From contig NZ_JACBZP010000001.1 in NCBI RefSeq assembly GCF_013409065.1, positions 1,426,001-1,490,000 of the forward strand: a stretch of 64,000 nucleotides of DNA, in the 5' to 3' direction. The DNA is from Spelaeicoccus albus (GTDB taxonomy: Bacteria; Actinomycetota; Actinomycetes; Actinomycetales; Brevibacteriaceae). Below are positions 20,525 to 63,783 of the stretch, one piece after another (the first letter of the stretch is position 1; each line of letters opens with the position of its first letter). The notes beneath the pieces are model-generated. The model had not been told where the DNA came from, did no database searches, and saw nothing but the letters and a program-made list of their open reading frames with translations. The position numbers were made by a program, and so were the translations under genes.

Positions 20525-21547
20525 CTACTTGGCCGTTTTCGCCTTCTTTGCGAAGTCGGTGTCAACGTATTTGCTCTGCGGAATCGGGTCCGAGTATTTG
20601 ATCGCGCCGACGTCCATCCAAGCCTTTTCCATCTCCGACAACTGCTTGGGCAGCGGGTGCAGGTCGGGCAGCCACGTGTAGAGCGGTACCGATTTGACCT
20701 GCTTCGGCGTCTGATCGGTCGCGTCGGCAATGATCTTCACGTTCTCTTTGGAATAACGCTTCTTGCCCTGCAGGTCCTTTGCCCCGCGGGCGAGTGCATT
20801 GAAGAAGTGCTGCGCGGTATCCGTCGAAGCGAATTTGCCGCCGTAGATCACGCCGGTTCCGGAGGTGCCCTTTGGCGTCGTCCACACCTTTTTCGCGGCC
20901 TTGTCGTTCACAACCTGCTCATAGAACGGCGACGAGGCGAAAGCAGCGTCCACGCTGCCGTTCTTGACGGCGGTGGGGATGTCCGGGTTACCCAAGTTGA
21001 CCAGTTTCACGTCGTTCAGCGAAAGACCGGCCTTCTTCAGCGCCATGCTGATGTAATACGCGCCGGTGCCGCCGATGCCGCCGGCAGCAGCAATCTTTTT
21101 GCCCTTCAAGTCTTTCAGGCTCTTGTAATCGCCGCTCTTGACCAGCTTGTTCGACACTACGAGCGCGGACGGCGACGGCTCGTCGTGCGCAGGTTGGACA
21201 CCCATCGACCCGACGACCTTGACGTCAAGCCCCGAATCGATGGCGCTGAACATTCCGGCAGAGAACCCGGCCACGAGCGCGTCGAGCTTTCCGCTGGAAG
21301 CCAGCGGGACGCCGTCCTGCCCCGACTTGATGTTCTTCAAGCTCAACTTGATGCCTTCGTCCTTGAAATACCCCTTCTTTTGGGCAACATACATGGGAGC
21401 GAAGATGGAGAGCTGGACCTGACCGACGCTCACTGTCGTGAGCCCGCCACCGCTATCGTCATCGCCGGAGGATGCCTGCCCGCCGCAGCCTGTCAGCGCG
21501 AGGGCGAATACCGACAGGGCCGCGATGTATCGGAACTTCTTTCTCAT
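20525..21547 (-). CDS. NitT/TauT-type ABC substrate-binding lipoprotein
   Basis: 340 residues. Basic N-terminus MRKKFR, hydrophobic stretch and lipobox LTGC (Cys21). The mature part follows the SsuA/TauA pattern: APMYVAQKKGYFKDEGIKLSL, GFSAGMFSAIDSGLDVKVV, then LKGKKIAAAGGIGGTGAYYISMALKKAG. Such proteins bind sulfonates, nitrate or pyrimidine precursors. The ATG at 21547 places the signal peptide correctly and is preceded by a purine-rich AAAGAAGG. It ends the three-gene minus-strand operon and converges on the gene ending at 20495. Confidence 0.88.
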   Translation of the reverse strand: MRKKFRYIAALSVFALALTGCGGQASSGDDDSGGGLTTVSVGQVQLSIFAPMYVAQKKGYFKDEGIKLSLKNIKSGQDGVPLASSGKLDALVAGFSAGMFSAIDSGLDVKVVGSMGVQPAHDEPSPSALVVSNKLVKSGDYKSLKDLKGKKIAAAGGIGGTGAYYISMALKKAGLSLNDVKLVNLGNPDIPTAVKNGSVDAAFASSPFYEQVVNDKAAKKVWTTPKGTSGTGVIYGGKFASTDTAQHFFNALARGAKDLQGKKRYSKENVKIIADATDQTPKQVKSVPLYTWLPDLHPLPKQLSEMEKAWMDVGAIKYSDPIPQSKYVDTDFAKKAKTAK

Positions 21548-22410
21548 TTCCCATCCTTCTTTTTTGCTTTTCCGGCGTATTGTCCGCGTAGTAGGAGCCG
21601 CTCCAAGCCGATTACGAGACCGGTGATCAGGGCGCCGATGACTGAAACGACTATCAGGCCGACGTACATGGTTTCCGGCTGGAAGAGCTGCCATGAATTC
21701 CAGATCAGATACCCGAGACCATTATTCGAGGCGACAAACTCGACGGCGGTCACGACAATGACGGACATCCCAGCGGACACGCGCAGGCCCGTCATGATGG
21801 TCGGCGTGGCGGCCGGCAGCAGGACATAGCGGAAGAGCTTCCAGCCGGTAGCCCGGTAGGCGTGTGCGGCTTCGAGAATGCGTTTGTCGATTTGCACGAT
21901 CCCGGCAACGGTATTGATCTGCATGACGAAGAAGACCGAAATGGCTACCGAAAGGACCTTGGGCGTTTCTCCCAAGCCAAAAATGAGCAGAAGCAACGGC
22001 AAAATCGCGATTTTCGGCAGGGCGTAGAGGGCCGTGAACGTTGGCCCGAATGCTGCGCGAAGCGGCCGCCAGACTCCCATGAGCAGGCCGGCGAGTATGC
22101 CGACGATCGACCCCAAGATGAACCCGGCCAGCAGCCGAGCGACAGTGCTTCCGAGGTGCGGCCATAGCGTCCCGTCGACAATCATTTCCCAGCCATGGGC
22201 CAAAATCTGCGTCGGCGGCGTGAAGAGCCGCGGATCGAGAACACCGATGGAAGCAGCAAGCTCCCACAGCGCTAGCAGAATCAGCGGCGTCAGGATGGAA
22301 AGCAGGACGTCGCGCGTTCGCAATCGCTGCTCGCGCTTGTAGTCGCGACTAATTGCCGCGTGCAACTCGGCGACCGCCGGCTTATTGGAGTTCGTTGTGC
22401 TGTCGATCAT
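21544..22410 (-). CDS. NitT/TauT-type ABC permease
   Basis: 288 residues with six hydrophobic segments and the coupling loop IVQIDKRILEAAHAYRATGWKLFRYVLLPAATPTIMTGL of SsuC/TauC-type permeases. A ~35-residue basic N-terminal tail precedes the first helix. The start overlaps the ATPase stop (ATGA) and its 3' end overlaps the binding-protein start by 4 bases, so all three genes are translationally coupled. Confidence 0.9.
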   Translation of the reverse strand: MIDSTTNSNKPAVAELHAAISRDYKREQRLRTRDVLLSILTPLILLALWELAASIGVLDPRLFTPPTQILAHGWEMIVDGTLWPHLGSTVARLLAGFILGSIVGILAGLLMGVWRPLRAAFGPTFTALYALPKIAILPLLLLIFGLGETPKVLSVAISVFFVMQINTVAGIVQIDKRILEAAHAYRATGWKLFRYVLLPAATPTIMTGLRVSAGMSVIVVTAVEFVASNNGLGYLIWNSWQLFQPETMYVGLIVVSVIGALITGLVIGLERLLLRGQYAGKAKKKDGK

Positions 22411-23228
22411 GCGAACCCCAAGGAAGTTTGCACTTCGTCGCGCAAGGACTCCCAGATGCTCTGTTTCATCTGCGCGAACTCGGGGGACGCCTCGATCTCG
22501 ATCTTGCGCGGCCGTGCGAATGGAACGGGCAGGATTTCCTTGACGCGTCCCGGCCGGGCCGACATGATGACGATTTGATCGCCAAGCAGCATGGCCTCCT
22601 CGATGGCGTGGGTGACAAGAATGACGGTTTTCCGCTCGGCTTCCCACAACTGCACGAGTTGTTCCTGCATGAGCGTGCGCGTTTGTGCATCGAGCGCGCC
22701 AAGCGGTTCATCCATGAGAAGTGATGGCGAGCCGGTTGCGAAGGCGCGGGCAATCGAAATGCGTTGGCGCATGCCGCCGGAGAGTTGATGCGGATAAGCA
22801 TTCTCGAAGCCGGAAAGGCCAACCTCATTGATCCAACGCTGTGCATGCTCGTGGCGTTGCTTGCGGGGCACGTCGGCCATCTGCTCACCGAACGCGACGT
22901 TGTCCAACACGTTGAACCACGGAAAGACACCATGCTCCTGGAAGACGAATGCGGAGCGGGGGATCTTCTTGGCGGCCAGGTTGATCTCTACTTCACCTGC
23001 GGTGGCTGTTTCGAGTTCCCCGATGATGCGCAGGAGGGTCGACTTGCCGCATCCCGACGGACCCAGGATGCATGTGAACGACCCTTCTTGGAAGTCGAGG
23101 TTCACGTCGTCAAGCGCATGCACTTGGGTCTTCCCGGTGAAGACCTTGGACAAATTGCGCACGACGAACGCATTCGGTGGTGAGTCGTGCGCCGACGTGG
23201 TCAAACGCGCATTTGTCGATTCGGACAT
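22407..23228 (-). CDS. NitT/TauT-type ABC ATPase
   Basis: 273 residues. Walker [11 protein letters not shown]-loop VFQEHGVFPWFNV, signature [14 protein letters not shown], Walker B LLMDEPLGALDA and VTHAIEEA are intact, matching SsuB/TauB. The C-terminal SARPGRVKEILPVPFARPR is also typical. The ATG at 23228 is preferred over a start at 23306 because the added residues do not fit the family. An inverted repeat lies 46 bases upstream, at 23274-23298. It leads the operon. Confidence 0.9.
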   Translation of the reverse strand: MSESTNARLTTSAHDSPPNAFVVRNLSKVFTGKTQVHALDDVNLDFQEGSFTCILGPSGCGKSTLLRIIGELETATAGEVEINLAAKKIPRSAFVFQEHGVFPWFNVLDNVAFGEQMADVPRKQRHEHAQRWINEVGLSGFENAYPHQLSGGMRQRISIARAFATGSPSLLMDEPLGALDAQTRTLMQEQLVQLWEAERKTVILVTHAIEEAMLLGDQIVIMSARPGRVKEILPVPFARPRKIEIEASPEFAQMKQSIWESLRDEVQTSLGFA

Positions 23229-23273
23229 GACGGTTCTCTTTTTAGGTCGTTTCCGGAACGCTGTTGAGTTTTG

Positions 23274-23298
23274 TCGAGATTCAAAAAGACAATCTCGA
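23274..23298. promoter_or_regulatory. inverted repeat before the NitT/TauT operon
   Basis: TCGAGATT-9 bases-AATCTCGA, perfect 8-base arms, 46 bases before the ATPase start on the minus strand. This is the size and spacing of a dimeric regulator site. No regulator gene is adjacent in the operon; the MarR or IclR proteins nearby, or a distant regulator, could bind. The rest of the 23229-23415 gap shows nothing clear. Confidence 0.45.
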
Positions 23299-23415
23299 TA
23301 ACCCATTGCAGACGCTAGCAGGAAAACGATATTCCACGCGCCATGCTCTTGAACTATGAGACCTGTCGGGGGCCCTCGAACTCTACCGAGAACGCGGTAC
23401 CGGCCTGCCGGAAAG

Positions 23416-52275: not shown

Positions 52276-53270
<995 letters not shown>

Positions 53271-53274
<4 letters not shown>

Positions 53275-54011
53275 CCTACCTGCTCGCCTCCGGCGTGCTC
53301 GCCGCCGCGAAGCCGGTGATCCCCGACTACGGGACGGCGACGCCGTGCGTGACGCACAACGGCATGTTCTGCACGTCCTGGTTCCTCCACCAGTGGCCCG
53401 ACGTGTTCGGCCCCGCTCTCGTGCAGCACATCATGCTGACGGTGATCGCCGTCGTGATCGGGTTCATCCTCGCATTTGCCGCCGCAATCTACGCCTACCG
53501 GCACAACTGGGCCGGGCCGCCGTTTGCGGGTATCGCCGCCTTTCTCTACACGATTCCGCCGCTGGCGTTGTTCGAACTGCTCGTGCCGCTGACCGGCCTC
53601 AGTACGCTCACCGTCGAGATCGCTCTCGTCGCCTACACGCTGCTTGTCCTTTACCGGAACGTCCTCACCGGACTGCAGGAAGTGCCTCCCGACATCAAAC
53701 GCGCCGCAATCGGGATGGGGCTCACACGCACACAGATCCTCTGGCGGGTCGAACTGCCCATGGCGGTGCCGGCAATCGTCGGCGGCCTGCGGATCGTGAC
53801 GGTACTGACGATCAGCCTTGCCACCATCGCGGCGTTCGTCGTGGACGCCGGCCTCGGCGCGCCGATCCTCAAGGCGCTTCAGTCCCCGTTCAACACGCAG
53901 TTCATCGGTGCCGGCGCGCTCGCCGTCCTCCTGGCGCTCGCCGCGGACGGACTGCTTCTCCTGCTCGGGCGAGCACTCACGCCGTGGGCCCGATCCAGAA
54001 AGGCATTTTGA
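53271..54011 (+). CDS. quaternary-amine ABC permease (OpuCB-like)
   Basis: 246 residues. Opens with a GTG in the ATPase's last codons. A ~45-residue non-helical lead (with two Cys) precedes the first membrane segment. Coupling loop: LQEVPPDIKRAAIGMGLTRTQILWRVELPMAVPAIVGG. It pairs with the second permease to form the channel. Confidence 0.88.
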
Positions 54012-54012
54012 G

Positions 54013-54666
54013 ATGGACGTCCTGACCTTCATGTCCAGCCACTTCTCGCTGCTCGTGTCCAAGACGGGCGAGCATCTGGAGTTGTCGATCGCGGCATCGA
54101 TCATCTCAATCGTCATCGGCGTACCGATCGGCGTGTGGCTCGGACACATGCACCGTGGCGAGTTCATCGCCGTCACCGTGTCGAACATTGGACGCGCATT
54201 GCCGAGCCTCGCCTTGATTGCCGTGTTCATCGGCGTCGTCGGTCTCGGGTTCAAGAACGTGCTCATCGCGCTCGTGATTCTGGCAGTGCCGCCGATCCTG
54301 ACCAATGCGTACCTCAGCGTCGAACAAGTCGTTCCGGACATCGTGCGCGCCGGTAAGGGGATGGGGCTGACCGGCAGACAAGTGCTGTTCAAGGTCGAGC
54401 TGCCGCTCGCTCTGCCGCTGCTGTTCGCCGGCGTGCGGACGGCCGTCGTGCTCGTCGTGGGAAGCGCAACCCTGGGTGCCGTTGCCGGCGGCGGCGGTCT
54501 CGGCGACATCATTCTGCGCCAGGCCGCCTACGGGCTCAGCGGCGTGATCGCCGGCGCCATCTGGGTTGCCGCTCTCGCCATTCTCGCCGACGTGCTGCTG
54601 TGGGGCGTGCAGAAGCTCATCACCCCGCGCGGGCTGCGTTCCCAGCAGGTCACCGCCATCGTGTGA
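54013..54666 (+). CDS. quaternary-amine ABC permease (OpuCD-like)
   Basis: 217 residues, five to six hydrophobic segments, loop VEQVVPDIVRAGKGMGLTGRQVLFKVELPLALPLLFAG. Starts one base after the previous stop. Last gene of the operon; the palindromic repeat at 54679 begins 13 bases later. Confidence 0.88.
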   Translation: MDVLTFMSSHFSLLVSKTGEHLELSIAASIISIVIGVPIGVWLGHMHRGEFIAVTVSNIGRALPSLALIAVFIGVVGLGFKNVLIALVILAVPPILTNAYLSVEQVVPDIVRAGKGMGLTGRQVLFKVELPLALPLLFAGVRTAVVLVVGSATLGAVAGGGGLGDIILRQAAYGLSGVIAGAIWVAALAILADVLLWGVQKLITPRGLRSQQVTAIV

Positions 54667-54969: not shown

Positions 54970-54991
54970 GCTATACCCAATCGGCTATAGC
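54970..54991. promoter_or_regulatory. inverted repeat before the PadR gene
   Basis: GCTATA-10 bases-TATAGC, 14 bases before the PadR ATG and ending just before its AAAGGAG ribosome site. The place and spacing suit autorepression by a PadR dimer. Confidence 0.45.
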
Positions 54992-55005: not shown

Positions 55006-55650
55006 ATGAAGAACGACTTCACGATCCTGGGCCTGTTGGCTCGTCAACCCGCCACCGGATATGACCTCGGAAAATGGTTGAAGGACGAGGGAATCTTTCT
55101 CGGTCGCAAACCGAGCATGTCGCCCATTTACCGATCGCTGAACGAGCTTCTAAACCGGGGATGGATCGCCAGCACAACCCAGCATCGCGACAACGCGCCC
55201 GACGGCAAGGTCTACAGCTTGACCGATGCCGGGCGGGACGCTCTCGTTGCGTGGGCCAAAGAACCCTATGAACCCGCGCCACGCCCGATGGACCCGCAAT
55301 TCATCGTGAAGCTCAACTTCGCAGGCCAGCTGGGAATCGAATACGCGCTGCCCATCGTCAAGACCGAACTCGAATACCGGAAGCGTCAACGTGTCGCCGA
55401 AGGAGGTCCGTTTCATGGAAGCCGCTCGTCCAGCCCCATCCCGGAGATCGACAAGACGTGGCTGGCATTCATCGAATGGCTCACACACGAGCGCGGCTAC
55501 GCGTCGACGTCCCTCTATATTTCATGGCTCGAGACGGTCGAGCGTGAACTCACCCTGATTCGCCGCAATGGCGGCGTCGTTTCCCGACTGTTCGACCCCG
55601 ACTGGTCACGGGAACCCGAGCAACAGGCATCAGACACGGTCGAAGACTGA
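55006..55650 (+). CDS. PadR-family transcriptional regulator
   Basis: 214 residues. The N-terminal PadR winged helix (FTILGLLARQPATGYDLGKWLKDEG, then MSPIYRSLNELLNRGWI, then KVYSLTDAGRDAL) is clear, and a longer C-terminal helical domain for dimerisation follows. AAAGGAG precedes the ATG. It is the first gene of an apparently single operon to 61956 (gap to next gene 18 bases) and probably senses its substrate. Confidence 0.9.
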   Translation: MKNDFTILGLLARQPATGYDLGKWLKDEGIFLGRKPSMSPIYRSLNELLNRGWIASTTQHRDNAPDGKVYSLTDAGRDALVAWAKEPYEPAPRPMDPQFIVKLNFAGQLGIEYALPIVKTELEYRKRQRVAEGGPFHGSRSSSPIPEIDKTWLAFIEWLTHERGYASTSLYISWLETVERELTLIRRNGGVVSRLFDPDWSREPEQQASDTVED

Positions 55651-55668
55651 CGATTGTAGGTATCATCC

Positions 55669-56469
55669 ATGACCGCAACCATCGCGCCCACCGACGAGTC
55701 GTCGGCAAAGACGAGGCGACCGAGATCGAACAAGTTCTCCACCATCAGCGTCGTGTCGGTATTCGTCGGACTGGGCCTCTGGTGGCTCGCATCGATCCTC
55801 AACCCGACGACGCTTTCCAGTCCGCTCGACGTTGCCAAACGCCTTGTTGAGCTGGCCGGTGACGGAACGCTGTTCACGAATATCGCCGCAAGCCTCGGCA
55901 GGGTCTTTGCCGGCTTCGCCATCGGCACCGTGCTTGCGATCATTGTCGGTTTCGGCATGGGCTGGTATCTCGGCGTCCGCGCCGCTATTCAGCCGTGGAT
56001 CCAGTTCTTCCGCGTCATCCCGCCGCTTGCCATCATCCCGCTCGCGATCGTGCTCATGGGCATCGGCGAGACGCCGAAGATCTTCGTCATCACGCTCGCC
56101 AGCTTCTTGGTGTCGGTCATCGCCACCTACCAGGGGGTCATCAGCGTCGACAAGACCTTGATCAACGCCGGACGCGTTCTTGGCACCAACGACTTGACGA
56201 TCTTCCTCAAGATCGTGGTGCCGGCGTCCGTGCCGTTCATACTTGTCGGTATGCGCCAGGGCCTCGGCGCCGCGTGGGCCACCCTGGTGGCCGCCGAACT
56301 GATCGCCGCGCAAGACGGTCTCGGACACATGATGCAAAAGGCGCAAACCTACTACGACCTGGACACCATCTTCGTCGGCCTCATTGTGATCGGAATCCTC
56401 GGCCTGCTCATGGACCGGATCCTCTTGTGGGCCGAAAAGCGACTCACCCAATGGCAGGAGCGCCGATGA
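55669..56469 (+). CDS. NitT/TauT-type ABC permease
   Basis: 266 residues, six hydrophobic segments. [32 protein letters not shown] and the loop [36 protein letters not shown] match SsuC/TauC. It overlaps the ATPase start by ATGA. Permease-ATPase-SBP order differs from the minus-strand importer at 20525. Confidence 0.9.
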
Positions 56470-57245
56470 ATCACAAGATCGCTTTTCAGAACGTCAGCTG
56501 CATCTACGAACTGAACGGCTCGTCATTCACGGCCGTGCACGATGTCAGCCTGGATATCGCCGACAACGAATTCATCACGGTCGTCGGGCCGTCCGGCTGC
56601 GGCAAGTCAACGCTGATGAACATGGCTGCCGGGCTACTCGAACCGAGCGATGGCCGGGTGGCCGTCGACGGGAAGACCCTGACCGGACCCGGACCGGATC
56701 GCGGAGTCATCTTTCAGCAGTACGCCCTCTTTCCCTGGCTGACGGTGCGCAAGAACGTCGAATTCGGCCTCAAAGTGAAGAAGCTGCCGAAAGACGAACG
56801 AGACCGCCGCGTCAACGACGTGCTCGAACTCGTGGGACTCACCAAGTTCGCCGATGCCTGGCCCAAGACACTCTCCGGAGGTATGAAACAGCGCTGTGCC
56901 ATTGCCCGCGCTTATGCGGCCGACCCATCGGTGCTGTTGATGGACGAACCGTTCGGCGCCCTCGATGCCCTCACGAGGGTGAAGATGCAAGAGCAGCTGC
57001 TCGACACGTGGACCAAGGACAAGCGCACCGTCATGTTCATCACGCACGACGTGGAAGAAGCCGTGTATCTGGCGAACCGGGTGATCGTGATGGCGGCGAA
57101 CCCCGGCCGCATCCAAGAGATCATTACCGTCGACCTGCCCTATCCACGCACTGAAGAAATCCGGCTCTCGCGAGAATTCGCCGACCTGCGCAACCAAGTA
57201 TGGAACGCCGTGTATCACCACGATTCAAAGGAGAACGCATCATGA
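56466..57245 (+). CDS. NitT/TauT-type ABC ATPase
   Basis: 259 residues. [51 protein letters not shown] and [11 protein letters not shown] are intact, as is the C-terminal [17 protein letters not shown]. It overlaps both neighbours. Confidence 0.92.
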
Positions 57246-58243
57246 ACACGAAACCCTCTCGCCGATCCATCCTCATCGGTGGCGCCGCGGCCGCGGTAGC
57301 GCCGCTGTTGGCGTCGTGCGGCGGCGACTCGTCGTCCGGAAACAGCAGTAAGAAATCGATCAAGGCAACTGTCGGCTATATCGCTGACGGCAACGGGACG
57401 TCCACGGTGGCCGTGGCCGACAAACTGAAGCTTTGGGACAAGCACGGCATCGACGTCACGATCAAGGAATTCACCGACGGGCCCACCCAGATCCAGGCAC
57501 TGGGCACGGGCGACCTGCAATTCGCCTACACCGGGCCCGGGGCGTTGTGGCTGCCGATGCAGGGCAAGGCCAAAATTGCCGCCATCGTCAGCCTCGGCGA
57601 GGCCGACCGAATCATCGGCCAAAAAGGCATCACCAGCATCAAAGACCTCAAGGGCAAGACGGTTGGCGTGCCCGAGGGGACCTCCGGCGACATGCTGCTG
57701 AGCTTGGCCCTGAAGAACGCCGGCCTGTCCGATGACGACATCAAGAAAGTCACGATGGACCCGCCGACGGTGATTTCGGCTTTCCAATCCGGAAAGATCG
57801 ACGGTGCCGCCATTTGGTATCCGCATGTCGCCACCATCAAAAAGCACACCCCGGGCACGGTGGAAATAGCCAAGAGCGCCGATTTCCCGGATTTGAACTT
57901 CCTGTCGACCTATATGACGGGCACGGACATGGCGGACGAGAATCCGGAGCTGTTGAAGCGCTTCGACGCGTTGGCCAAGGAAGCCAACACGTGGAAGCGC
58001 AAGAACAGCGACAAGATGGTGTCGGTGCTGAAGAAGAAGCTCGACGCCCCGGAAACGGCGTTGCGTGAAGAGCACAAATACATCAACGTGCTGCCGACCG
58101 ACGAAATCGTCCAAAAAACCAAGGACGGCACGATCGACACTTGGCTGAAGACGTTGAACAAGCAATTCAAAGCTATGGGCAAAGTGCAAGACATCGCCGA
58201 TCCCAAGGACTATTACCTTGGCGACGAATACGTGAAGGCCTGA
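57242..58243 (+). CDS. NitT/TauT-type ABC substrate-binding lipoprotein
   Basis: 333 residues. Twin-Arg (SRRSIL) and lipobox LASC (Cys26) suggest Tat export. Mature part: NGTSTVAVADKLKLWDKHGIDVTIKEF, DLKGKTVGVPEGTSGDMLLSLALKNAGL, and QSGKIDGAAIWYPHV, typical of SsuA/TauA-like proteins that bind sulfonates or sulfate esters. The sulfatase next door supports a sulfate ester. Confidence 0.9.
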   Translation: MNTKPSRRSILIGGAAAAVAPLLASCGGDSSSGNSSKKSIKATVGYIADGNGTSTVAVADKLKLWDKHGIDVTIKEFTDGPTQIQALGTGDLQFAYTGPGALWLPMQGKAKIAAIVSLGEADRIIGQKGITSIKDLKGKTVGVPEGTSGDMLLSLALKNAGLSDDDIKKVTMDPPTVISAFQSGKIDGAAIWYPHVATIKKHTPGTVEIAKSADFPDLNFLSTYMTGTDMADENPELLKRFDALAKEANTWKRKNSDKMVSVLKKKLDAPETALREEHKYINVLPTDEIVQKTKDGTIDTWLKTLNKQFKAMGKVQDIADPKDYYLGDEYVKA

Positions 58244-58281
58244 TCCAAACCGACTCGCGCCCGAAAAGGAAGTAGCAAGAA

Positions 58282-59718
58282 GTGACAACAGCGTCGGCCG
58301 ATCGGCCCAACATCGTCTTCATCATGTCCGATGATCATGCGGCGCATGCGATCTCGGCATACGGCAGCAAGGTGAACGAGACGCCGCAGATCGACCGGCT
58401 CGCCACCGAAGGCGCCCGCATGGATGCCGTGTATTGCACGAACGCGATCTGCTCGCCATCGCGCGCATCGATCTTGACGGGCACGTACAGCCACGTCAAT
58501 AACGTGCCGTCGATCTATTCGGAATTCGACCACCGGACGCCGACGTACGCCCGTGTGTTGCGCGAAAACGGGTACGCGACTGCGCTATTCGGTAAGTGGC
58601 ATCTCGGGCACACTCAGGAAAGCTTGCCGCGCGACTTCGACGAATGGAAGATCTTTCCGGGGCAGGGCGAGTACCACGATCCGGTGATGATTTCGGACGC
58701 CGGCGAAGAGACGGTGCCCGGATACGCCACGGACATCGTCACGGACCTGAGCCTGGCTTGGCTTGGCGAACGGGCCCCGGACGAGCCGTTTTGCTTGATG
58801 ATTCACCACAAGGCGCCGCACCGGCCCTGGGTACCGGACGAGAAACACAAACATTTGTACCCGGTCGGCAGCATCCCGGAGCCCGACACGTTGTTCGACG
58901 ACTACGCGACGAAGAGCCGCGCCGTCCATGAAGCGAAGATGACGATCGCCAACGATTTGAAGGCCGACGACGTCAAAGAAGAGCTGCCGGAGCATTTGCG
59001 TGGTGCCGAGTCGACGGTGGAGCGCACGCGCTGGAACTACCAGCGGTACATGCGCGATTATCTGCAATGCATTCAATCCATCGACGATAACGTCGGCCGT
59101 GTGCTCGACTACTTGGACGAGCACGGGCTCGGCGAGAACACCATCGTCGTTTACACATCGGATCAGGGATTCTTCCTAGGCGACCACGGCTGGTACGACA
59201 AGCGGTTCATTTACGACGAGTCGCTGCAGATGCCCTTCCTGATCCGGTGGCCGCGTGAGATTTCGGCAGGAACCCGGGTCGACGACATCGTCACGAATGT
59301 CGACTTCGCCGCCGCTTTTCTCGATATGTGCGGGCTGGACGACTCGGACGTGCTGCCGACCTCGCAAGGGCGAAGCTTCCGATCGGTGTTGCAGGGTCGG
59401 ACGCCGGATGATTGGCCGGAGTCGATGTACTACAGGTATTGGGAGCACGACGACCCGGAACATCACGCCTGGGCGCACTACGGCGTCCGGACCAAAACGC
59501 ACAAGCTCGTGTACTTCTACGCCGACGGCCTCGGCACGGTCGGGGCGGCCGACACGTCGTACGAGCCCGAATGGGAAATGTACGATCTCGTTGCCGATCC
59601 GCAAGAGCTCAACAACGTTGCCGATGACCCGCAGTATGCCGAAATCCGCGCCGATTTAGAAGCCGAACTCGCCCGGCTGCAAAAGTATTACCGGGACGAA
59701 CCGTACGAAGGTAGGTAA
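58282..59718 (+). CDS. type I arylsulfatase-family sulfatase
   Basis: 478 residues. C57-S-P-S-R61 with ILTG is the site at which the Cys is turned into formylglycine, and Asp17/Asp18 (MSDDH) bind calcium. GKWHLGHTQ and FFLGDHGWYDK complete the sulfatase fold. No signal peptide, so it acts in the cytoplasm on imported sulfate esters. Activity needs formylglycine-generating enzyme, not encoded here. GTG start with AAAGGAAG upstream; GC and codon use match neighbours. Confidence 0.92.
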   Translation: MTTASADRPNIVFIMSDDHAAHAISAYGSKVNETPQIDRLATEGARMDAVYCTNAICSPSRASILTGTYSHVNNVPSIYSEFDHRTPTYARVLRENGYATALFGKWHLGHTQESLPRDFDEWKIFPGQGEYHDPVMISDAGEETVPGYATDIVTDLSLAWLGERAPDEPFCLMIHHKAPHRPWVPDEKHKHLYPVGSIPEPDTLFDDYATKSRAVHEAKMTIANDLKADDVKEELPEHLRGAESTVERTRWNYQRYMRDYLQCIQSIDDNVGRVLDYLDEHGLGENTIVVYTSDQGFFLGDHGWYDKRFIYDESLQMPFLIRWPREISAGTRVDDIVTNVDFAAAFLDMCGLDDSDVLPTSQGRSFRSVLQGRTPDDWPESMYYRYWEHDDPEHHAWAHYGVRTKTHKLVYFYADGLGTVGAADTSYEPEWEMYDLVADPQELNNVADDPQYAEIRADLEAELARLQKYYRDEPYEGR

Positions 59719-59727
59719 TTCATCACA

Positions 59728-61956
59728 ATGACCGTAGCTCGTCGCACTTTCCTAGCAGCCGCCGGCACAGTCTCAGCGGTTGCCACCCTTGAGTCCCCAC
59801 TTGGAAACCCCGCGCACGCTAGCCCCGGAGTATCCGGCCGCCACCACCACGATGGATTCGACCTGATGCACGGTCGCGGTCGTGTTGAATTGCAGTGGTG
59901 GGGATCGGACATCGGCCAATTCGCCGCTTCCGAGCTTGCCGATTACGTCAAATCGATGACCGGGACGAGAATCCATACCTCCCGTGTGCCGGCTCCGTCC
60001 GACAAACCCGGCACCGCGCATTCCGGAATTTTCTTGGCCCGCGGGCACGTCGACAGGACGAAACGCGCACGCTGGATATCGACCGCGAACGAAAAACTGG
60101 ATTCTAAACCGGACGACACCTACATCATTCAGTCCGCCGCCGGCCACGTCGTGCTCACCGGAGCCGGTGAGCGCGGCACGTTGAACGCGGTGTATTCGTT
60201 GCTCGAACAACTCGGCGTGCACTTTTTCGCCCCGGAATTCGCCTTCTACCAGGGCAACTCCGAACGCGTGCCGAGAAAGTCGCGCTGCGTCGTCCGCGCT
60301 CAGTCAACTCTCGTCGAACCGAAATGGCCGATCCGACGCAAAGACGTCGAAGAGGGATTCAGTTTGAGCAAGGGCCACATCGTGGCCCTCGTCGACTGGA
60401 TGGCCAAGCACAAACTCAACTATCTCGTGTTTCCGTACGACTACTACGCGATCGGCGTCACGCGCTACGACGACTTCCGTGAAGTTCTGGCGCCCGAACT
60501 CGCCAAGCGCGGGATCAAGATGGAAGTGGGCGGACACGGCTACGACTCGTTCTTGCCGCCGGAGAAGTACCCCCAGTTCTATACGAGCGATGCGTCGGTG
60601 TTCGACGTGCAGAACCAGGACGCCGTCGACACCTATGTGAGCAATGTGGTCGATTACCTGGCGGACCGGCCGGAGATTGCCACGTTTGATTGCTGGCCGC
60701 CGGACGGCGGTACGTGGCCGAAGGCGGCGTTGTCCAAATACGGCACCGCAACGAATGCGGAAACCGTGGTGGTGAACGCCCTGGTCGCGGCGCTGAAGAA
60801 GGCCGGGATCAGCACGCGCGTCGAACGCATCGCGTACGCTGCGGCGCTGGAACCGCCGACGGGCTCGTATGAATTCGATCCGGACGTGCTGATCGACTTC
60901 GCCGCGATCGGCCGCACCTACACCGTGCCTTTCGGCGATCCCTCGAATGAGACGAACGCGAAGTTCGCCAAGTTGCTCAAAAAGTGGATATTCCTCCATC
61001 AGGGCGATGTGGCGATTTACGATTATTCGCGTCGCTATCGCTGGCGCGGCTTGGGCAACCCGATCGACGTGATTGCCGCCGATGCGGCGTACTACCACAA
61101 GGTCGGAGCGCAGGGCACCGAAAGTTACGCCGAGGCGGGGAACTGGCTGCAATTCGAGGCCGAACACCTGTTTACCGCGCAGAGCGCCTGGAATCCCACG
61201 CTGAGCGCGGACGAGTTCCGCAGCGACTATCTGCCGGCGCGGTTCGGGCGCGGCGCACATGACGTGGCACGCTACCTCGGGCACACGTCTGCCGATCCGG
61301 ACCAGCTCGGGGCCGATGGCGGTGGGACCAAATTCCGTCGCCAATATCGCGCCGCCTTGTCCGACATTGTGGCGGCGCAGCACGCGGTCGGGCGCAATCG
61401 TTCGGCGCAAAACATCCTCGGCCTGTTGAAGTCCGGCGTCCACCTATCGCTGGCCGATATCGACATCACATACGAGGCTGACAATCCGAAGCGACTCGAA
61501 CGAGCACAGCGCAGATATCGTGTGTTGACGGAAAAATACCGGTTTAGCGGCATTCAGCTGGAGTGCACTTACCAAACGAAACGGTATGGATTCACGCTTG
61601 GCCGGGAAGAGACCGCGCAGCGGTATCGATCACCGGCGTGGGGTTACTTGCGTGAGTGGTCGCTGACCTGCAGGGCCGGCGAATCGACGCCCCTGGTGGT
61701 CGTGGCGCAGCCCGTGGACTTCGACCGCCATCGCATCCGGTGGGAGCTGGATCTGCCCGACGCCATCACGTCGTCACGGGCCTCCGGCCGCTTGGACATC
61801 ATTGGTTCCCGGGCCGAACACGCGCCGTGCCGAATCACGGTCGGTCCGAACGTTCCTGCCGGCACGTACACGATCGGCGTGACCTTTTACGAAGTCGGCG
61901 ACCGAAACGGAGGAACGAAGCTCGGTACCGACGAGGCGACCTTGACCGTGGTCTGA
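59728..61956 (+). CDS. Tat-exported DUF4838-type protein (putative glycan-acting)
   Basis: 742 residues. Tat-like signal ARRTFLAAA (twin Arg at 5-6) with possible cleavage after AHA (~32). Residues ~40-180 form an alpha/beta domain like the N-terminal domain of alpha-glucuronidases and related glycosidases (AASELADYVKSMTGTRI, GTLNAVYSLLEQLGVHFFAPE). Residues ~200-560 carry DUF4838-like barrel features (MAKHKLNYLVFPYDYYAIG, FDCWPPDGGTWP). A beta-sandwich (~640-742, NVPAGTYTIGVTFYEVG) ends it. No proven catalytic residue can be named. Co-expressed with the sulfatase, so it probably trims or binds a sulfated glycan outside the cell. Confidence 0.75.
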   Translation: MTVARRTFLAAAGTVSAVATLESPLGNPAHASPGVSGRHHHDGFDLMHGRGRVELQWWGSDIGQFAASELADYVKSMTGTRIHTSRVPAPSDKPGTAHSGIFLARGHVDRTKRARWISTANEKLDSKPDDTYIIQSAAGHVVLTGAGERGTLNAVYSLLEQLGVHFFAPEFAFYQGNSERVPRKSRCVVRAQSTLVEPKWPIRRKDVEEGFSLSKGHIVALVDWMAKHKLNYLVFPYDYYAIGVTRYDDFREVLAPELAKRGIKMEVGGHGYDSFLPPEKYPQFYTSDASVFDVQNQDAVDTYVSNVVDYLADRPEIATFDCWPPDGGTWPKAALSKYGTATNAETVVVNALVAALKKAGISTRVERIAYAAALEPPTGSYEFDPDVLIDFAAIGRTYTVPFGDPSNETNAKFAKLLKKWIFLHQGDVAIYDYSRRYRWRGLGNPIDVIAADAAYYHKVGAQGTESYAEAGNWLQFEAEHLFTAQSAWNPTLSADEFRSDYLPARFGRGAHDVARYLGHTSADPDQLGADGGGTKFRRQYRAALSDIVAAQHAVGRNRSAQNILGLLKSGVHLSLADIDITYEADNPKRLERAQRRYRVLTEKYRFSGIQLECTYQTKRYGFTLGREETAQRYRSPAWGYLREWSLTCRAGESTPLVVVAQPVDFDRHRIRWELDLPDAITSSRASGRLDIIGSRAEHAPCRITVGPNVPAGTYTIGVTFYEVGDRNGGTKLGTDEATLTVV

Positions 61957-62114: not shown

Positions 62115-62870
62115 TCAGGTCAGCCTGACTTTGACCGGGTCGCCAAACATGGAGCCGCTGAACAAAATAAACTTCGGGGTAACGCTTTTCGGAACGTCGA
62201 ATATGAGCTTTCCCTTAGTCGTGTTACCAGGGTTGATTTCCTCCAGAAGGCCATTGGAGTCTTCAAGTGCGATAGCCGCGTCGTCGTCGGCACTGTATTT
62301 CTTACCGTCAGCATCGACAAGCTTCTGGTCGTCACCCCAAAAAGTTTCAGATTCGTCGCCGATATTCTTCACGTCTACAGATACGACAATGTACTGCCCA
62401 TCGGCAGTTTCCTGCCATCCGGAAGATCCAACTTTATGGACACCGTCTTTGACCTCAGTAACCGTGAATTTGAAATGACCGCTTTTGACGGAGTCGCCCT
62501 GTTTCACGACTGCGACATGTTCGATTTCATGAGACACGTCACTGCTCGACGAAGCGGAATCTCCGCCGAAAGCGTCGTAAATCGAAATTGTAAAAGTTAG
62601 CGCGATGATGAAGCCGATAGCCCCCATAGCCGTTCCCGCAATCGCGAGGCCACGTGGGCGGTATTTAATAATTAAGCCGATGACGCCAAAGATTATTGCC
62701 AAAGGGCCTAACCCGAACGAAACAACGCCGACAAATGGTATGAATCCAAAAAGTAGTGCAAGTAAGCCAACGACGAATGCGGTGACGCCCCACGGATTTC
62801 CCCGTTTGACCGGTGCAGGTGCTGGTGGCGGAGCAGGAGCGTAGGAAGGTGCGGACACGGGGGTTTCCAA
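62115..62870 (-). CDS. DUF4190/DUF4352-like membrane-anchored protein
   Basis: 251 residues. Pro/Ala-rich start (residues 8-22), then two hydrophobic segments around a Gly-rich turn (~28-90), resembling DUF4190, and a soluble DUF4352-like beta-sandwich from ~120 on (ADGQYIVVSVDVKNIGDESETF, NPGNTTKGKLIFDVPKSV). Such proteins face outward and may bind ligands or other cell-surface proteins, but no function is known. Base composition is visibly more AT-rich than in its neighbours, a hint of recent arrival. Confidence 0.75.
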   Translation of the reverse strand: METPVSAPSYAPAPPPAPAPVKRGNPWGVTAFVVGLLALLFGFIPFVGVVSFGLGPLAIIFGVIGLIIKYRPRGLAIAGTAMGAIGFIIALTFTISIYDAFGGDSASSSSDVSHEIEHVAVVKQGDSVKSGHFKFTVTEVKDGVHKVGSSGWQETADGQYIVVSVDVKNIGDESETFWGDDQKLVDADGKKYSADDDAAIALEDSNGLLEEINPGNTTKGKLIFDVPKSVTPKFILFSGSMFGDPVKVRLT

Positions 62871-63045: not shown

Positions 63046-63783
63046 CTAGCGAGTGACGTTCTCAAGGGCCGCGCGGGCCGACCGGACCGTTGCGGCGTCC
63101 GTGACGAAATAGGAATCGCCCGAGTCGGCGGCGCCGAGGCTGACGTTCGTCCGCCGCACTCGCTCCGTGCGCAGCTTTGCGGACATGTGTACGGCGTCCG
63201 CGCCGGCGCCGATCACGGGCTCGAGCGTCGACGGCGTCAAGCCGCCGCCGGCCATGATCCCGACACCGCGCGCCTCCTCCGACATGCGCGCGATCGCCGC
63301 GGCTCCGTCGACGGCGGTGTCCGCGCCGCCGGACGTGAGCACCTGGTCGACTCCGAGATCCGCCAGACCGCCCACGACCTCAATCGGGTCGGCCGCGTGA
63401 TCGATCGCCCGGTGGAAGGTGATGCGAACAGTCGGTGCGACATCGCGGGCGGCAGCGACGAGCCGCCGAGTACCCGCGGCGTCAAGCGACCCGTCCGCCT
63501 GCAACGCGCCCAACACGACACCGGCGACCCCTGCGGCTGCCAGGCACCGTGCCTCCCGCTCCATCGTGCGAAGCTCCGATTCGTCGTAGACGAAGTCTCC
63601 GGGCCGGCAGCGCAGCAAGGCGAATGTCGGGATCCCGGTCTCCACGGTGAGCGCCACCGCTCCCTCGGATGGGGTGAGCCCGCCGAGTTCGAGCCCGGTA
63701 CACAATTCGACCCGGTCCGCGCCGTTGTCCCGTGCCGTGCACGCCCCTTCCGGCGACGTGACGGCGATCTCCAAGTCGACCAT
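63046..63783 (-). CDS. cutC: CutC-family protein
   Basis: 245 residues. LEIAVTSPEGACTARDNGADRVELCTGLELGGLTPS (4-39) is the CutC hallmark, followed by RCRPGDFVYDESEL, ITFHRAID, VLTSGGADTAVDG and GIMAGGGLTPSTL. CutC was linked to copper tolerance in E. coli, but its true reaction is unknown; it has a TIM-barrel with conserved Asp/Glu/Arg residues. It follows an incomplete gene by 5 bases on the same strand and is probably co-transcribed with it. Confidence 0.92.
   Translation of the reverse strand: MVDLEIAVTSPEGACTARDNGADRVELCTGLELGGLTPSEGAVALTVETGIPTFALLRCRPGDFVYDESELRTMEREARCLAAAGVAGVVLGALQADGSLDAAGTRRLVAAARDVAPTVRITFHRAIDHAADPIEVVGGLADLGVDQVLTSGGADTAVDGAAAIARMSEEARGVGIMAGGGLTPSTLEPVIGAGADAVHMSAKLRTERVRRTNVSLGAADSGDSYFVTDAATVRSARAALENVTR

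Follow-up and report, generated by a model that had tools for sequence, protein, structure and literature searches.

What is carried by a sulfonate-type importer that is encoded, behind a PadR-family regulator, together with a sulfatase lacking a signal peptide and an exported DUF4838 protein? The question is raised by a six-gene operon of Spelaeicoccus albus (Actinomycetota, Brevibacteriaceae), located at positions 55006-61956 of a 64,000-nucleotide stretch of contig NZ_JACBZP010000001.1, which is referred to below as the window. The permease of this ATP-binding cassette (ABC) importer belongs to a clade found in Actinomycetota, Bacillota and Alphaproteobacteria, and in 44 of the 44 clade loci examined a sulfatase gene lies within 3 kb of the importer. 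We consider it very probable that the cargo is an organic sulfate ester on which the partner sulfatase then acts, and the genomic context points to a sulfated sugar.

The original prediction described six genes with short gaps or overlaps, and this is what a reading of the sequence gives: all six frames are on the + strand, the largest gap is 38 nt and two overlaps are of 4 nt. All of the Pfam matches of the six genes exceed the curated cut-offs. The components of the locus are as follows.

55006-55650, + strand: PadR-family transcriptional regulator (PF03551, 45 bits, cut-off 27)
55669-56469, + strand: NitT/TauT-type permease (TauC-like) of the sulfatase-linked clade, 18 nt after the PadR gene (PF00528 BPD_transp_1, 89 bits)
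56466-57245, + strand: ABC ATPase (TauB-like), overlapping the permease gene by 4 nt (PF00005 ABC_tran, 113 bits)
57242-58243, + strand: SsuA/TauA-like substrate-binding lipoprotein, overlapping the ATPase gene by 4 nt (NMT1, 76 bits)
58282-59718, + strand: type-I sulfatase with the motif CSPSR and, by eye, no signal peptide, after a gap of 38 nt (PF00884, 184 bits; SGSH_C, 162 bits)
59728-61956, + strand: DUF4838 protein, by eye exported through the twin-arginine translocation (Tat) pathway, a predicted glycoside hydrolase, after a gap of 9 nt (PF16126, 53.5 bits, cut-off 26.6)
54970-54991, no strand: operator-like inverted repeat just upstream of the PadR gene, with 9-nt arms 89% complementary and a 4-nt spacer

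Signal peptides were judged by eye, with no predictor run, and some of the frames permit longer starts. The DUF4838 protein has a twin arginine and a site resembling that of signal peptidase I (ARRTFLA...AHA-S), the binding protein has a twin arginine and a lipobox (SRRSIL...LASC), and the start of the sulfatase, VTTASADRPNIVFIMSDDH, contains no signal peptide. The motifs agree with the layout proposed at the outset, namely a Tat-exported DUF4838 protein, a Tat-type lipoprotein and a sulfatase without a signal.

In the first of two phylogenetic trees the core permeases were placed on one side of a branch supported by 100/97 and by 98% of the bootstrap trees. The second tree, from which 14 rows of the first were omitted (six long-branch paralogues and eight near-copies), recovered the clade branch with 100/96 and in 200/200 bootstrap trees and separated the clade from Escherichia coli TauC and SsuC. 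With the importer span taken as the TauC gene plus 2.2 kb, the sulfatase gene lies less than 500 nt from the importer and on the same strand in 38 of the 44 loci. In locus L098 the single sulfatase detected belongs to a second kind and is encoded on the other strand, 2.4 kb away; the sulfatase gene of L101 is also on the other strand. Four of the 44 loci provided seeds of the sulfatase hidden Markov model (HMM) and one is a near-copy, and the remainder all have a sulfatase (39/39).

The same HMM, whose four seeds are actinomycete sequences and none of which comes from the counted Paenibacillus loci, detected a sulfatase in 26/26 importer regions of Paenibacillaceae versus 0/20 regions around paralogous permeases of genomes with DUF4838. 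The 26 regions comprise all 21 of the family sample around Paenibacillus phytorum and five from other DUF4838-bearing Paenibacillus. The control regions (20 of the 23 paralogous matches were fetched) comprise 17 from Paenibacillus and three from Embleya and Streptomyces inusitatus, and three of them, cut short where a contig begins or stops, measure 9.0, 10.8 and 12.5 kb. If the loci were independent, the Fisher p value would be 1.8e-13, but it overstates the linkage and the 44 loci do not represent 44 independent events, because loci within a genus can be near-copies. A tblastn search of plasmids with the permease returned 20 records, in which all 13 of the additional loci read (that of Martelella first via its sulfatase) have a sulfatase gene adjoining the importer; two others, from Embleya and Streptomyces clavuligerus, were already counted, and the further five, judged near-copies by organism and score, were kept outside the count. 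A chance neighbourhood is ruled out by the linkage in the 44 loci and by the comparison with the controls. The conserved core of these loci is the importer together with a sulfatase without a signal peptide.

The partner sulfatases, which by eye have no signal peptide wherever the start was read, are of several kinds. Besides the window, Martelella, Sinorhizobium and two Paenibacillus have S1_11-like enzymes (48-53% identity); a different kind is shared by Embleya, Streptomyces, Nonomuraea and Arthrobacter, most Paenibacillus have a third, and those of Rhizobium and Neorhizobium are of further kinds, about 30% identical to the rest. Since cytoplasmic sulfatases act only on imported substrate and the clade is tied to several kinds of them, the importer clade most likely carries sulfate esters.

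A gene for the formylglycine-generating enzyme (FGE) is present in 10 of the 44 importer regions. In three loci an FGE gene of their own was noted near the importer and sulfatase genes (L019, 10522-11577; L023, 8749-9813; L169, 12145-13092). A second kind of sulfatase, with the motif CTPSR or CTPTR, is encoded near five Paenibacillus importer clusters (L068, 2590-4101; L069, 15235-16746; L078, 14011-15567; L098, 12994-14508; L113, 4209-5867). In Sinorhizobium sp. K101 (L178, 7905-12197) the importer and S1_11-like sulfatase genes are located, by eye, directly upstream of rpsB- and tsf-like genes, and no DUF4838 gene was found within this stretch.

The sulfatase of the window has the attributes of a type-I (FGly) enzyme, namely a PF00884 domain, the FGE-type active-site motif CSPSR and an FGE encoded in the genome. 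FGE is required for the activation of CxPxR sulfatases; the genome of S. albus has one FGE match (276 bits), five PF00884 matches and one DUF4838 match, and the sulfatase HMM scan of the window detected only the sulfatase of the operon. The closest solved relatives are S1_11 N-acetylglucosamine (GlcNAc)-6-sulfatases, the best match in the Protein Data Bank being 5g2v (E 9.1e-122), which we take to be BT4656. In the available part of PMC10154612 BT4656 is classed in S1_11, a subfamily whose described target is 6-sulfated GlcNAc or, for its aquatic members, L-galactose. The region around H399 and R403, a candidate counterpart of the His and Asp/Arg triad by which S1_11 enzymes recognise O3 and O4, is conserved in the importer-linked relatives and largely so in the solved ones.

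The binding protein exceeds the cut-off of the NCBIfam SsuA-family model TIGR01728 (190 versus 163.5 bits) and falls below that of the taurine equivalog TIGR01729 (79 versus 304 bits). Its AlphaFold2 (AF2) model is nearest to E. coli TauA (6ssy; Z 28.9, root-mean-square deviation (rmsd) 2.8, 286 aligned residues), followed by SsuA with Z 28.5. The permease and the ATPase are of the NtrB/TauC and NtrCD/TauB types: the best NCBIfam matches of the permease include TauC, with 169 bits and below the model cut-off of 342, and those of the ATPase are SaoA, NtrCD (254 bits, cut-off 292) and TauB, all below cut-off. Across 13 binding proteins, including E. coli TauA and SsuA, no variation is seen at G80, G98 and W192 and next to none at S148; by our own reading these residues, with S148 in a GTSG motif, correspond to ligand residues of SsuA given in the accessible portion of PMC3839906. 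The glutamine of SsuA is not kept in the clade, where by our reading of the alignment the loop has three additional residues; in 11/11 aligned clade members GTSG is directly followed by an acidic residue. Membership in TauABCD was rejected, as the binding protein fails the taurine equivalog and a Pfam scan of the six genes detected no TauD-like gene; so was membership in SsuABCDE, as no SsuD- or SsuE-like gene was detected in that scan and the permease falls outside the branch with E. coli SsuC.

Several importer loci have a sugar-related setting. ROK regulators are encoded at those of Embleya, Streptomyces, Nonomuraea and Arthrobacter, and the Embleya protein is best matched by the NagC and Mlc models, below their cut-offs. 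Plasmid p232 of Arthrobacter sp. Rue61a (L170, 5206-16199) encodes FGE, ROK, TauC, TauB, TauA, sulfatase, a SIS protein, a ROK kinase, PfkB and a class II aldolase. The SIS protein resembles glucosamine-6-phosphate deaminases, and all four of the last-named proteins are below equivalog cut-offs; the downstream genes plausibly constitute a path for a desulfated hexosamine. This plasmid is typed as conjugative; of all the loci read, it has the fullest set of genes for the pathway and would be a good model for experiments. In Nonomuraea a gene of glycoside hydrolase family 35 (GH35) is located about 2.5 kb from the importer. In Paenibacillus several of the scanned neighbours of DUF4838 are GH31, fucosidase, sialidase, GH20, GH2 and NAGidase proteins, in some cases carrying cohesin or dockerin domains. 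Sialylated and fucosylated glycans of host type, which are possible carriers of 6-sulfo-GlcNAc, would be fitting targets of such a set.

The AF2 model of the DUF4838 protein (pLDDT 86) comprises a TIM barrel, a helical part and a C-terminal beta part, and the protein is predicted to be a glycoside hydrolase of GH115/GH84/GH20-like fold. The model matches GH84 with Z of about 20 and GH20 with Z of about 18-20, and the 6-sulfo-GlcNAcase BT4394 is among the fold matches (Z 18.4). E209, E266, D321, D326 and E469 are invariant in 25 aligned DUF4838 sequences including that of the window, and in the model all five are located in barrel strands or at most five residues after them. Sequence searches with the single protein and with a 25-protein profile matched no solved DUF4838 or GH163 chain, while the profile matched GH67, GH20 and GH115 chains; no GH163 chain is named among the best 50 structural matches listed. 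According to the available text of PMC11659886, the 6-sulfo-GlcNAcases known at the time of its writing belong to GH20, so that a DUF4838 protein with this activity would be new.

The gene set is rare in the relatives of S. albus. DUF4838 was found in 2 of the 99 genomes of the kin sample, its own and one with a match at 31% identity, and a permease at clade-level identity only in its own genome of 59, the 58 relatives reaching at most 42%; these figures rule out that the set is common in the kin of the organism. In the first tree 24 of the permease matches of the relatives fall outside the clade. A search of genome contigs with the single DUF4838 protein gave no relative, the first DUF4838 alignment detected class-wide only the genome of S. 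albus (1/394), and the PF16126 model detected 8 of 394 genomes, among which that of S. albus is not listed although its separate scan has one match.

Homologues of DUF4838 were found by tblastn in five plasmid records, including megaplasmids of Embleya (48.5% identity) and S. clavuligerus (39.7%), and in both of these the same importer genes adjoin DUF4838. The order in S. clavuligerus (ROK, TauC, TauB, TauA, sulfatase, DUF4838) is that of the window with ROK in place of PadR, its sulfatase being of a different kind; in Embleya the order is ROK, sulfatase, TauC, TauB, TauA, FGE, DUF4838. Embleya scabrispora and S. inusitatus carry the same importer-sulfatase-DUF4838 sets. The neighbourhood search advised along with the original prediction returned conserved sets, contrary to the refuting condition named there, that the gene set would not be conserved elsewhere. 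Importer, sulfatase and DUF4838 are together in two Embleya, S. clavuligerus and S. inusitatus; in P. phytorum they share a stretch of about 15 kb, where sulfatase, TauC, TauB, TauA, GH20, two regulators and DUF4838 are encoded, the last about 7 kb from TauA.

An alignment-based search for DUF4838 gave 23 loci, six of them from Paenibacillus; importer genes are present within three of the 23 (L023, L024 and L028), and sulfatase-like genes without a clade importer in the stretch within six, from other phyla. All six DUF4838-bearing Paenibacillus genomes have a permease orthologue (49-53% identity, next paralogues at most 39%), which is near a sulfatase gene in 6/6. Of the 12 genomes from these loci that were searched, two Armatimonadota and two Bacteroidota with DUF4838 have no permease orthologue. 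Of the 104 genomes in the family sample for P. phytorum, 21 have the permease orthologue and 1 has DUF4838; of 30 genomes of its genus, 5 and 1 do, respectively. These counts rule out DUF4838 as part of the conserved core. DUF4838 is accessory to the core of importer and sulfatase.

The course of events that we favour, and which as a whole is on balance probable, is the release of a sulfated sugar, its import and its desulfation inside the cell. The DUF4838 enzyme, exported by the Tat pathway, would act outside the cell on a sulfated glycan, of animal type or other, and free from it a small sulfated saccharide, most likely one of the 6-O-sulfated N-acetylglucosamine type. The TauA/SsuA-like lipoprotein would capture the sulfated sugar, holding the sulfate in the oxyanion site with which related proteins bind sulfonates, and TauB and TauC would import it intact. 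The S1_11-like sulfatase, activated by FGE in the cytoplasm, would then yield the free sugar and inorganic sulfate, while PadR would control the operon. We infer the substrate, the direction of the route and its regulation, and it is context that leads from a sulfate ester in general to the sulfate of a sugar. The succession of outside glycan processing, NitT/TauT-type import and inside desulfation proposed in the original prediction is retained by context, with DUF4838 moved from the core to an accessory role, and of the substrates it offered, a sulfated glycan or glycoside or an aryl sulfate as sulfur source, sugar sulfates are favoured and aryl sulfates as a mere source of sulfur are not. 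Our searches returned no open-access paper on the combination of importer, sulfatase and DUF4838, which is weak evidence of its absence in print.

Several findings weigh against this scheme. The best structural match of the DUF4838 model, first also in Foldseek's own ranking, is to GH115 alpha-glucuronidases (Z 21.6, rmsd 4.2, 511 aligned residues, 14% identity), a shared fold that does not show the function of DUF4838. An LGxxGA...EWE insertion is present in 5/5 aligned importer-linked S1_11-like sulfatases and absent from the five solved relatives aligned, so that GlcNAc-6-sulfate may not be the exact substrate, and, since the partner sulfatases are of several kinds, the substrates may differ between loci. 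The Pfam scan of the six genes detected no sugar kinase or deaminase gene. According to the available part of PMC3839906, SsuA of X. citri, which has the same fold as the binding protein, binds alkanesulfonates and not sulfate esters; the SsuA family alone therefore does not predict the ligand. DUF4838 is encoded in only 5 of the 44 importer regions, or 6 of 44 with the nearby gene of P. phytorum, and in P. nanensis it is about 15 kb from the sulfatase-importer cluster. In 4 of the 6 Paenibacillus it is on another contig or megabases from the importer, and in Gemmatirosa, the third organism of the plasmid records with DUF4838, the stretch read around this gene contains no importer and no sulfatase. 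Naming 6-sulfo-GlcNAc is accordingly the weaker part of the scheme, because of the insertion and because DUF4838 matches alpha-glucuronidases at least equally well. It is possible, though doubtful, that the clade represents an undescribed family of importers, in at least three phyla, for intact sugar or amino-sugar sulfates, and that DUF4838 is a non-GH20 sulfoglycosidase freeing 6-sulfo-GlcNAc directly; in many Gram-positive bacteria and rhizobia, sugars of host or plant glycans would then lose their sulfate in the cytoplasm instead of outside the cell.

Among the other explanations, the one that survives best is sulfur scavenging, in which the importer would take up aryl or alkyl sulfate esters as a source of sulfur and DUF4838 would be an incidental neighbour. 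In the AtsRBC/AtsA system of Pseudomonas an aryl or alkyl sulfate ester is imported by an ABC transporter and then acted upon by a cytoplasmic sulfatase, a principle that the pairing of importer and sulfatase resembles; in addition, no glycosidase is listed in the annotated rhizobial stretches and DUF4838 is absent from 39 of the 44 importer regions. Sugar-type regulators of the ROK and LacI families at importer loci, the hexosamine-type cassette of Arthrobacter, the closeness of the window's sulfatase to S1_11 and the adjacency of DUF4838 and importer genes in five actinomycete loci, that of the window among them, argue against it, and we regard scavenging as unlikely.

A somewhat different route, in which an endo-acting DUF4838 enzyme would release a sulfated di- or oligosaccharide to be imported, and trimmed and desulfated inside, is improbable as well: the described S1_11 enzymes are exo-acting, as far as the available part of PMC10154612 goes, and none of the six genes encodes a signal-less glycosidase. 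It draws on the labelling of one DUF4838 protein as GH163 in the accessible text of PMC9870897, on the removal of N-acetyllactosamine (LacNAc) antennae in endo-fashion by a GH163 enzyme (PMC10154615, in part) and on the large pocket of SsuA, of which the ligand fills 14% (PMC3839906).

An ordinary taurine or alkanesulfonate importer, placed beside a sulfatase by chance in a sulfur-starvation regulon, would account for the fold and family of the binding protein; it is very unlikely given the lack of TauD- and SsuD-like genes among the six, the failed taurine equivalog cut-offs, the sulfatase linkage in 44/44 loci against 0/20 controls and the separation of the clade from E. coli TauC and SsuC. 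Uptake of inorganic sulfate or of a desulfated product, with sulfatase and DUF4838 serving another purpose, has in its favour the sulfate-type ATPases among the weaker NCBIfam matches of the ATPase and is hardly credible, as the binding protein is SsuA/TauA-like and a partner sulfatase that lacks a signal peptide should receive its substrate in sulfated form.

Regulation by PadR is a local feature; at other loci ROK, LacI or two-component regulators are found. The inverted repeat upstream of its gene is a weak operator candidate, because it is one of nine short inverted repeats in 181 bases, and a promoter scan gave zero sigma-70-like sites, fewer than in shuffled sequence. In the Paenibacillus importer regions a histidine-kinase-like gene was observed in 19/26 and a response-regulator gene in 16/26 (for example L067-L069 and L078; by Pfam for one pair). 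The recurrence of such genes indicates that regulation in Paenibacillus differs from that by PadR in the window.

Upstream, the operon is adjoined by a separate system, a betaine/choline-type ABC importer (window 52276-54666, + strand; its second permease by eye). Downstream, on the opposite strand, a small membrane protein (62115-62870, - strand) and a CutC-looking protein (63046-63783, - strand) are encoded, both by eye. At 21544-23306 (- strand) the window also encodes paralogues of the permease and the ATPase, of NitT type and with 29% and 44% identity.

In the annotated plasmid records read, the binding proteins of the clade are labelled as aliphatic sulfonate importers. Should sulfate esters be the true cargo of the clade, the meaning of an easily recognised class of annotations would change at once, its signature being a permease of the clade with a signal-less sulfatase nearby. 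If true, the reading proposed here would also mean a cytoplasmic route for sulfated sugars in soil actinomycetes, paenibacilli and rhizobia, and the roles of DUF4838 and of the several kinds of sulfatase would become directly testable.

Among known systems, AtsRBC/AtsA works on the principle proposed here for the operon of the window; it is not known to have a glycosidase partner. TauABC and SsuABC of E. coli belong to the same protein families as the importer of the window and share with it the fold of the binding protein and the glycines, serine and tryptophan of the oxyanion site. Unlike in these systems, the permease of the window is in a separate clade, the partner is a sulfatase rather than TauD or SsuD, and the glutamine loop is replaced. 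With regard to GH163, GH115, GH84 and GH20, the DUF4838 protein, with PF16126 over the cut-off, has a predicted fold like that of GH115, GH84 and GH20. The S1_11 GlcNAc-6-O-sulfatases (5g2v and the mucin-desulfating sulfatase 7p24) are nearest by sequence to the sulfatase, in which the H-x-G-x-R region is mostly retained; unlike them it has no signal peptide and contains the LGxxGA...EWE insertion. In the available part of PMC10154612 the enzymes acting on mucin and glycosaminoglycans (GAG) work at the surface or in the periplasm, in contrast to the sulfatase without a signal peptide described here. Similarly, the mucin and GAG loci of Bacteroidota combine glycosidases and carbohydrate sulfatases for glycans of host type, as in the present context, but whereas they desulfate in the periplasm or at the surface (PMC10154612, same part), the operon of S. 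albus would first import the sulfated compound.

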